From assembly GCA_013298715.1 (NCBI GenBank), contig JAAFIQ010000001.1, forward strand, positions 434,001 to 498,000: a stretch of 64,000 bases of DNA. Direction: 5' to 3'. Below, in pieces: positions 51,682 to 54,183 of the stretch. Both the position numbers and the translations under genes were made by a program. This stretch comes from Bacteroidota bacterium. GTDB lineage: Bacteria; Bacteroidota; Bacteroidia; B-17B0; Aurantibacillaceae. A model generated the notes under the pieces. That model did not search any database. It had not been told where the DNA came from and saw nothing but the letters and a program-made list of their open reading frames with translations. Each line of letters opens with the position of its first letter. The first letter of the stretch is position 1.

Positions 51682-51912
51682 TTACTTCACCGTAGGCGTA
51701 GCAACCGCAGTTGGTTGTGCAACGGGTTGAGGCGCAGCAGGCTCGTTAATTATTTGCAAGGGTTCGGCCATGCGTGCTTTAATAGTTGCAGTCATCGAAT
51801 CTTGAATAATTTTGTTACGGGCATCGCTTTTAACACGGTCTTCTGCTGCTGGCCCGCAAGCAATTACTAATAAAAATGTAGATAAAACTAAACTGTATTT
51901 TAAGATTTTCAT
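51682..51912 (-). CDS. Small lipoprotein (76 aa), paralogue of the 83-aa lipoprotein upstream
   Basis: The signal peptide KILKYSLVLSTFLLVIAC puts the lipobox cysteine at residue 19, followed by GPAAEDRVKSDARNKIIQDS and a Pro/Ala/Thr-rich tail. The mature N-terminus CGPAAED closely resembles CGPSAEE of the neighbouring gene, with a similar alpha-helical stretch after it, so the two arose by duplication. No known domain. A periplasmic or outer-membrane helical lipoprotein is inferred. Confidence 0.7.
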   Translation of the reverse strand: MKILKYSLVLSTFLLVIACGPAAEDRVKSDARNKIIQDSMTATIKARMAEPLQIINEPAAPQPVAQPTAVATPTVK

Positions 51913-52044: not shown

Positions 52045-52296
52045 TTAGTGCTTTACTTCAGCAGTTGCAGTAGCAGCAGCGTCAGTTGCAGTAGCAGCAG
52101 CGTCAGTTGCAGTTGCAACAGCAGCATCAGTAGCAGTTGATACAGCTGCGTTCATCGACTCAGTTAAAGCGTTAGCAATAGAATCAGCGATACGTTTTGC
52201 ATCAGCCTCGATTTTAGCTTTTTCTTCAGCTGAAGGACCACAAGAAACCATAGTAGCAACTAAAGCTACAGCAATGATTGAGAATACTTTTTTCAT
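52045..52296 (-). CDS. Small alanine/threonine-repeat lipoprotein (83 aa)
   Basis: The signal peptide KKVFSIIAVALVATMVSC puts the lipobox cysteine at residue 19. A charged helix follows (GPSAEEKAKIEADAKRIADS), then a low-complexity tail of TATDAAA-type repeats ending AEVKH. The tail is encoded by a 21-base tandem repeat (52063-52083 and 52084-52104, with a third imperfect unit to 52128). The organisation recalls small Lpp-like helical lipoproteins, but there is no recognisable family. It is paralogous to the 76-residue lipoprotein downstream. Confidence 0.72.
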   Translation of the reverse strand: MKKVFSIIAVALVATMVSCGPSAEEKAKIEADAKRIADSIANALTESMNAAVSTATDAAVATATDAAATATDAAATATAEVKH

Positions 52297-52512
52297 TTTT
52301 TAAATTTTAAATTGTTGTTAATTGTACATTTATACCCTATTGTTAAATAAGTAACCCAAAAAAAGTAATTATTTTTTAATTTTTTTATAAATGCCTGTAA
52401 ATCAATGTGATAATTTTGAATAAAATTCGGTTACCAGTGTTATAAACAAAAAAATAAAAAATTATAGGGTTACCTTTAGCGCTTTAAAGTATAAATCTAA
52501 CACACGGCCTTT

Positions 52513-53094
52513 ATGTCGAAACCAAATTTGCAGTTTACCGATAACCAATTTATTGATGGTTTGAGAAACAACAACAATGAGGTTTTAACGGCCCTGTATA
52601 AAAAGTATTATAACTTCGTTCTTAAACTTATTGTAAACAATAGTGGTAACTCTGAACAGGCACAAGACATTTATCAAGAAACGATAATTGTTGTGTTTGA
52701 AAATTGTAAAAAACCCGATTTTCAACTCAATTGCCAATTGCAGACTTACATTTATTCAATAGCCAAACGATTATGGTTAAAGCAATTAAAGAAAAACGGT
52801 AATTCGTATTTTTTTAGAGAAGATGAAGAAAATGAAATTGAAGATGTAGAAAGCGATATGAGCATTTATCATCAAAAAGAAACGGATTTGGATAAAATGC
52901 AACAGAGTCTTACACAACTTGGTGAGCCATGCAAAACGTTGATTAATGATTTTTACATCAATAAAAAAAGCATGGATGAGATAGCAGAAAAATTTGGTTA
53001 CACAAATGCAGATAATGCAAAAAACCAAAAGTACAAATGTTTACAACGATTAAAGAAATACTTTTTTGAAAAAGAAGAAAATATTGAAGATTAA
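52513..53094 (+). CDS. ECF-type RNA polymerase sigma factor
   Basis: 193 residues. Region 2: LYKKYYNFVLKLIVNNSGNS followed by AQDIYQETIIVVFENCKK and the RLWLKQLKK helix. An acidic linker (EDEENEIEDVESD) precedes region 4 (LTQLGEPCKTLINDFYINKK; helix-turn-helix around DEIAEKFGYTNADNAKNQK). The N-A-K-N-Q-K-Y-K-C recognition helix is typical of a Bacteroidota sigma group. It is followed after 12 bases by a membrane protein with an anti-sigma-like N-terminus fused to a protease, its likely regulator. Confidence 0.92.
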   Translation: MSKPNLQFTDNQFIDGLRNNNNEVLTALYKKYYNFVLKLIVNNSGNSEQAQDIYQETIIVVFENCKKPDFQLNCQLQTYIYSIAKRLWLKQLKKNGNSYFFREDEENEIEDVESDMSIYHQKETDLDKMQQSLTQLGEPCKTLINDFYINKKSMDEIAEKFGYTNADNAKNQKYKCLQRLKKYFFEKEENIED

Positions 53095-53106
53095 AAAGAT
53101 AGAGAT

Positions 53107-54183
53107 ATGAGGAATACAGATGTGTTTGATTGCTATTTAAACAACGAACTTAACGAAACCGAAAAGGTAGCGTTTGAAACACGATTAAAAAACGATCATC
53201 TTTTTTGTGATGCTTTTGAGCATCATAAAAAGTTAATAAATACGTTGCAAGAATACACTAACCAAACAAACCTAAGAGCTACTTTAAAAGCCATTCACGA
53301 AAAAGAATTTGGCGGCCATGCACAAGTTATTTCCATTAACGCTCCAATAGGATTTTTTAAACGTTATGGTAAAACAATGGCTGTGGCGGCAAGTACCGCT
53401 GCAATAGTAATGTTTTGCTCAATAGCGCTTTTCAATCAACAAAAGCAACAACAAGAGGAGCTTACCACATTAGGTAAAAAAGTGTTGGCCTTAGAATACA
53501 CCAACGATGCCATTGTTGAAGAAATAGTAAAAACCAACACAAAATTAAATTACGTACCTGCAAATTATGAAGGAAGCGCTTTTGCCCTAAATAACAACGG
53601 CTACATTGTTACTAGCTACCACACTATTAAAGATGCAGATAGTATTTTAATTGAAAACGCAAATACAAAAAGAACGTTAACCACAGTGGTTTATCAAAAC
53701 CCAAAATTAGATATTGCTGTATTGCATGTAAACGAAATTTTAGTTGCTAAAGATTGGCAAGTGCCGTTTTGCATAAGCGATAGAACCCTTGATATTGGCG
53801 AAAAAATTTACACCTTGGGGTATCCGCGTAAGGACATTGTTTACGGCGAAGGATCTATTAGCTCGTTAAGTGGATTTAATAACGACTCAAAAATGTATCA
53901 AGTTTCTATTCCGGTAAACCCGGGTAATAGCGGTGGACCGGTGTTAGACGAACAAGGTAATTTAATTGGAATTGTGCGTGGAAAAAACAAACAAGCCGAA
54001 GCCACTGGTTTTGCCTTAAAAACTCATGAATTAATTGAAGCAGTTGCTAACTGCGCTAAAGAATTACAAAAAGAAGATTTAGTAATTAGCGCCAAAAAGT
54101 CGAATTTAAAAGGTGTTAAACGCACCGAACAAATTAAACGCATAACACCTTATGTGTTTAATGTATTGGTTTACAAAAACTAA
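53107..54183 (+). CDS. Anti-sigma-like domain fused through a membrane helix to a trypsin/HtrA-like protease
   Basis: 358 residues. The N-terminal segment (DVFDCYLNNELNETEKVAFE and onward to about residue 75) matches the short helical domain common to Bacteroidota anti-sigma factors. A membrane helix lies at about 93-112 (MAVAASTAAIVMFCSIAL), then a short coiled coil (QQKQQQEELTTLGKKVLALE). The C-terminal 200 residues form a chymotrypsin-fold protease with the triad in order: His in VTSYHTIKDAD, Asp in LDIAVLHV, Ser in NPGNSGGPVLDE. No PDZ domain follows. The topology puts the anti-sigma part in the cytosol and the protease in the periplasm. It is probably co-transcribed with the sigma factor 12 bases upstream. 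Confidence 0.85.
   Translation: MRNTDVFDCYLNNELNETEKVAFETRLKNDHLFCDAFEHHKKLINTLQEYTNQTNLRATLKAIHEKEFGGHAQVISINAPIGFFKRYGKTMAVAASTAAIVMFCSIALFNQQKQQQEELTTLGKKVLALEYTNDAIVEEIVKTNTKLNYVPANYEGSAFALNNNGYIVTSYHTIKDADSILIENANTKRTLTTVVYQNPKLDIAVLHVNEILVAKDWQVPFCISDRTLDIGEKIYTLGYPRKDIVYGEGSISSLSGFNNDSKMYQVSIPVNPGNSGGPVLDEQGNLIGIVRGKNKQAEATGFALKTHELIEAVANCAKELQKEDLVISAKKSNLKGVKRTEQIKRITPYVFNVLVYKN

Follow-up and report, generated by a model that had tools for sequence, protein, structure and literature searches.

Recurrent pairing of an ECF sigma factor gene with a putative anti-sigma/trypsin-fold protease fusion in Bacteroidia

Directly behind an ECF sigma factor gene of a Bacteroidota genome lies a single reading frame that joins a putative anti-sigma domain, one membrane helix and a trypsin-fold protease, and this sigma-fusion arrangement, with a similar promoter ahead of it, recurs among the compared sequences in many Bacteroidia. 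The architecture, the pairing, the intact catalytic triad, the promoter motif and the neighbouring lipoprotein gene can all be read directly from the DNA. Taken as a whole, the anti-sigma-protease unit is in our judgement probably an autoregulated envelope-response module. Three features are additions to a preliminary description of the locus: the promoter motif, the Ala-Ala motif of the membrane helix and the divergent gene for a lipoprotein.

The locus and its conservation

Positions refer to the window, that is, the whole stretch of 64,000 nucleotides that was analysed. The sigma gene (52513..53094, + strand) encodes 193 aa that match the ECF sigma superfamily model TIGR02937 at 69.1 bits (cut-off 42.9) and, in region 2, PF04542 at 39 bits (cut-off 24) in a Pfam scan. 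The same scan of the 193-aa protein gave no Pfam match for region 4, and a C-terminal helical domain of the sigma factor is predicted with a pLDDT of 92-95 in a joined sigma/anti-sigma model. The gene for the fusion of anti-sigma domain, single membrane helix and trypsin-fold protease (53107..54183, + strand, 358 aa) starts 12 bases past the end of the sigma gene, in the identical frame. Both reading frames are present at the positions given in the preliminary description of an ECF sigma factor beside a protease-bearing protein.

The fusion is matched in 81 of the 87 genomes of the order (E <= 1e-15), and in 61 of the 62 that are near-complete, so it is not a product of chance; the sigma factor is matched in 84 of the 87 (E <= 1e-20). 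The preliminary description had proposed searching genomes for a conserved pairing of this architecture with the sigma gene, and such a pairing is found in three sets. Among the fusion loci read in the order, a same-strand sigma gene lies directly upstream in 50/50, one of them (L031) with the sigma frame split into two pieces. A scan of named genomes returned at least 80 loci, 11 of full length and 69 with the protease only; the sigma gene lies directly upstream in 11/11 full-length loci, which include Mucilaginibacter, Pedobacter, Sphingobacterium, Hymenobacter and Chitinophagales, and in 0/69 of the protease-only loci that serve as control, seven of which have a sigma-like ORF farther away and a few of which have little upstream sequence. 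From 395 genomes drawn evenly over the phylum, 37 matches at E <= 1e-40 were obtained, comprising 29 fusions and eight protease-only proteins; the sigma gene is directly upstream in 29/29 fusions (window included) and in 0/1 of the protease-only matches, one of the eight having a locus, which brings both controls to 0/70. The 29 fusions are 28 without the window, L139 duplicates L059, and the window sits in two of the three sets. Since the 29 fall into five families, the arrangement is widely distributed within part of the class, whereas most of the phylum sampled either lacks it or has it in a form that goes unrecognised.

In a plasmid search, a Novosphingobium match covering residues 10-313 was rejected: it is a 283-aa HtrA-like ORF preceded by a stop, and the ORFs listed around it include no sigma gene. 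On an Ensifer plasmid (L230:2246-5363, + strand) a trypsin-like peptidase gene lies between hypothetical and site-2 protease genes, and in another locus (L035:2122-6852, + strand) an ECF sigma gene is followed by the gene of a 400-aa membrane protein and then by that of a 991-aa protein which looks like a TPR protein with a CHAT protease.

A shared promoter motif and small lipoprotein genes

An ECF-type promoter motif, GGTTAC-N15-GTATAAA, precedes the sigma gene at 52468..52495 (+ strand). The motif GGTTAC-N15/16-GTATTAA or a near variant of it is found before the sigma gene in 47/50 order loci and 36/39 others (83/89), against chance expectations, from shuffles of the same stretches, of 0.13 for the order and 0.10 for the others, about 0.2 together. 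The earlier suggestion that synthesis of the protease is tied to the sigma factor it restrains is supported in part, in that sigma and fusion lie in one operon behind this conserved ECF-type promoter. In the window the sigma start codon stands 18 bases past the -10-like element, and in Sphingobacteriaceae the sigma gene often starts with GTG a few bases past it; this closeness, noted in the window and in L057-L066 and other loci, suggests very short leaders or none.

On the opposite strand, the motif occurs again at 52329..52356 (- strand), ahead of a divergent gene for a small lipoprotein-like protein of 83 aa (52045..52296, - strand); a second such gene of 76 aa lies behind the first (51682..51912, - strand), and its membership is uncertain. 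A divergent small ORF with a lipobox-like signal is present within 900 bases in 35/50 order loci and 33/38 others (68/88), the signal being called by a simple pattern for which the sigma-strand control gives 2 and 5. The divergent-strand motif itself is found within 700 bases in 28/50 and 27/39 loci, respectively. Exact motif sites number five genome-wide, versus one for the reversed pattern; the five are located before the sigma gene, the lipoprotein gene, a gene for a 334-aa lipoprotein-like DUF4349 protein and, in two cases, no clear target. Twelve genomes hold 29 sites versus 8 in the control, and the first ORF downstream is a sigma gene in 10, a lipoprotein-like gene in 10 and neither in 9; given these nine and the eight control sites, about a third of the sites may be due to chance. 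The promoter could be used directly as a reporter, and its sites supply a set of target genes.

The fusion protein and a possible one-chain switch

The N-terminal domain (residues 1-69; 53107..53313, + strand), with model helices at residues 3-11, 17-29 and 31-69, is very probably an anti-sigma domain, and we read it as a zinc-less, class-I-like one. The window's own N-terminus (1-87) matched no Pfam family, so this reading is based on profile comparison by hhalign and on the sigma adjacency of other genes. A Pfam scan of 29 N-termini touched zf-HC2 most often (7/29), with a best E of 0.0057, which is below significance. By hhalign, the N-terminal profile aligns with zf-HC2 anti-sigma domains at a probability of 72 and a score of 29.1; the comparison profile was made from 14 of the 17 sigma-preceded loci among 22 Bacteroidia loci read. 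As controls, 50 column-shuffled decoys gave at most 3.5 in probability and 16.6 in score, the reversed profile gave 8.5 and ten sigma windows 13.7. The His/Cys zinc ligands of the ZAS/zf-HC2 type are absent from the alignment of the 29 N-termini; zinc-less class I anti-sigma domains exist, and thus the missing ligands bar the term "zinc anti-sigma" alone. Compared by profile with the PDB, the N-terminus had nuclear receptors as its best matches (E 0.027), which were taken as helical chance matches, and no anti-sigma chain appeared among the 60 matches shown.

A profile of the 29 N-termini was then searched against 61 genomes of the phylum and 26 of the genus. Twenty-six of 27 further genes with this domain have a sigma gene directly upstream (the exception is L240), or 22 of 23 when four trypsin fusions are left out. 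The 27 consist of 23 of the 24 rows of one search (the window left out), L138 and three non-orthologue rows with a locus; in one domain search, more than 20 weaker rows had no locus and hence lie outside the 27. In the window's genome the profile finds three places at E <= 1, namely the window itself, a protein of 811 aa that bears cytochrome c (L137) and a membrane protein of 414 aa (L138); all three genes immediately follow a sigma gene. From the 26/27 adjacency we take the domain to be modular and to go with sigma genes; together with the hhalign score above all decoys, this bears out the anti-sigma-type N-terminus of the preliminary description. An 811-aa protein (L033:2486-4921, - strand), encoded immediately downstream of a paralogous ECF sigma gene, combines the shared N-terminal domain with a cytochrome c domain and an Ile-Ala-Ala membrane helix, and is perhaps a redox-sensing anti-sigma factor. 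Against the anti-sigma reading, about the first 40 residues of the domain are missing from two of the 89 fusions, both of one family (L154 and L161), although the triad and the adjacent sigma gene are retained.

With a pTM of 0.73, the joined sigma/anti-sigma model is confident by its internal measure, but it has no Foldseek match at E <= 0.001. Its sigma domains deviate from those of solved sigma/anti-sigma complexes by 8.7-14.2 A rmsd over both domains, the value for SigK/RskA being 14.2 A over 147 residues, and the model was set aside as proof of sigma binding because its sigma arrangement is unlike the solved complexes. Gene neighbourhood reveals partnership and not its sign, and FecR-type proteins can act as sigma activators. 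That the N-terminus would be an activator or scaffold of the sigma factor instead of its inhibitor is nevertheless very unlikely in our estimate, given that the zf-HC2 domains matched by the profile are those of anti-sigma factors.

The anti-sigma domain is followed by one membrane helix, as had been described, at about residues 91-110 (53377..53436, + strand), recognised from the sequence and from column composition. It carries Val93-Ala94-Ala95 (53383..53391, + strand); the Ala-Ala pair is found in 89/89 homologues, and the residue before it is always hydrophobic (89/89: V 57, I 17, M 8, A 3, F 2, L 2). After cleavage, RseA has a VAA end. In RsgI anti-sigma factors, according to the available text of one study, XAA motifs of the membrane helix are exposed by the RseP cut and recognised by ClpXP (PMC12203970). 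The juxtamembrane helical linker (residues 111-150; 53437..53556, + strand) is a candidate site of a first cut; in the model a long helix, 80-141, contains the membrane stretch. The genome encodes an M50 site-2 protease (PF02163, 178.4 bits); since the same family was also detected in each of the 14 control genomes, finding a member here says little when taken alone.

The protease core occupies residues 151-292 (53557..53982, + strand), where Trypsin_2 (PF13365) matches residues 156-289 at 80.8 bits (cut-off 27.6). An AlphaFold model of the fusion, built from 12 sequences (mean pLDDT 71, pTM 0.50), aligns in its protease part with HtrA1 (8se7: Z 16.2, 4.2 A, 166 residues) and with DegS (2qf0: Z 15.4, 4.3 A, 165 residues) by Foldseek and VIA-align. 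The term "HtrA-like" of the preliminary description accordingly holds for the fold and not for the domain set: the Pfam scan of the fusion gave no PDZ match at E <= 1, and the 25 families listed for a set of 25 fusion members likewise include no PDZ. The best NCBIfam match is to the MarP family of membrane serine proteases (residues 108-319) at 83.7 bits, far below the curated cut-off of 250; to our knowledge, MarP has no anti-sigma domain. The catalytic residues His172 (53620..53622), Asp202 (53710..53712) and Ser275 (53929..53931, all + strand) stand in chymotrypsin order, and the triad described before is not only intact here but kept in 89/89 homologues, a set of 88 distinct sequences over residues 100-357 with 25-59% identity to the window protein. 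Ser275 lies in GNSG in 88/89 and in GQSG in one (L167).

This constancy argues that catalysis matters. It also weighs against a role of the trypsin-fold domain as a ligand sensor alone, with catalysis irrelevant, a role that has been suggested for the RsgI9 S1C domain; the protease-like domain of that protein is said, in the part of the source available, to bind cellulose (PMC12203970), and its S1C-NTF2 part (7sjy) is at rank 13 among the structural matches of the fusion model, but we would give such a sensor only a slim chance.

The proposed mechanism runs as follows. At rest, the domain of residues 1-69 would hold the ECF sigma factor at the inner membrane. An envelope signal would activate the periplasmic trypsin-fold domain, which might then cleave first, at a site close to the membrane, either the chain it belongs to or an adjacent copy. 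The M50 site-2 protease (RseP) would subsequently cut the membrane helix, and the hydrophobic-Ala-Ala end left behind, by analogy with RsgI and RseA, would be passed to ClpXP. The freed sigma factor would transcribe its own operon and the small lipoprotein genes from GGTTAC-N15/16-GTATTAA. Taken alone, self-cleavage as the first cut has about an even chance in our view. The whole reading, a one-chain switch of sensor, site-1 protease and anti-sigma factor that ends its own inhibition by a self-cut and is wired by its promoter to small lipoproteins, is held more tentatively, at somewhat less than even. An additional, unlinked site-1 protease may also exist.

The main rival to self-cleavage as the first cut is a true anti-sigma factor whose protease is the effector: a membrane-tethered quality-control enzyme with its dose set by the sigma factor it restrains, and with release through another site-1 protease or through binding alone. 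The strongly constrained core (mean conservation 0.63, versus 0.44 for the anti-sigma domain) and the autoregulated operon would suit such an effector, self-cleavage is inferred, and a separate HtrA with PDZ domains is encoded elsewhere in the same genome (L002). On the other hand, a tether would be odd for general quality control, each anti-sigma factor lost would cost a protease, and the Ala-Ala motif is in keeping with a cut of the fusion chain inside the membrane. We regard the effector reading as rather unlikely. The C-terminal tail (residues 331-358; 54097..54180, + strand), with a helix at 339-349 and a strand at 350-357 in the model and the consensus ..QIKK..YVF.VKVY, has a mean conservation of 0.61, close to the 0.63 of the core, and perhaps exerts protease control in place of a PDZ domain.

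Relation to known anti-sigma systems

In the literature searched we recognised no description of an anti-sigma/protease fusion of the ECF sigma type; the group may already be catalogued in the main ECF classification or in the work on RsgI9 autoproteolysis, both of which lay outside that search. According to the available part of a survey, the share of ECF sigma genes with an adjacent class I anti-sigma domain is only 6% in Bacteroidetes versus 32% over all phyla; the survey suggests other control modes for Bacteroidetes ECF sigma factors (PMC7406223). The zinc-less domain described here, found behind sigma genes in nearly every further case, may belong to the missing Bacteroidetes anti-sigma set. 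If the one-chain switch is true, part of the Bacteroidia would have in it a main envelope-response system that has not yet been given a name, built on a family of zinc-less anti-sigma factors overlooked by curated models.

Among known proteins, the membrane anti-sigma factors of Bacteroidia with zf-HC2 domains share the helix pattern YLxGxLSxxE..FE..L, have the sigma gene directly upstream in 17/22 loci and often begin their membrane helix with Ala-Ala; unlike the fusion family, they carry His/Cys zinc ligands. RsgI9 of Clostridium thermocellum is likewise a membrane anti-sigma factor with an outside domain of S1C fold and Ala-Ala in its membrane helix (PMC12203970), combining an anti-sigma-I domain with S1C peptidase-like and NTF2 domains, so that there is a precedent for joining an S1C domain to an anti-sigma factor. 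It differs, as far as the available text of that source goes, in being of the SigI type and not ECF, in being called an orphan, and in undergoing autocleavage in another periplasmic domain, with its S1C domain described as polysaccharide-binding (PMC12203970).

The closest parallel in layout is the sigma-E/RseA/DegS/RseP system of E. coli, with which the locus shares an ECF sigma factor, a single-pass anti-sigma factor, a periplasmic protease of DegS fold and the presence of an M50 protease. DegS of E. coli, in the part of the source available, is a protein separate from RseA and has a PDZ domain (PMC8103513), whereas here protease and anti-sigma factor form one ORF (53107-54183) with no PDZ domain; the placing of sensor, protease and anti-sigma factor on one chain, pointed out in the preliminary description as a difference from E. 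coli, thus stands. Should the protease act on the chain that carries it, the inhibitor itself would contain the opening step of the sigma-E cascade.
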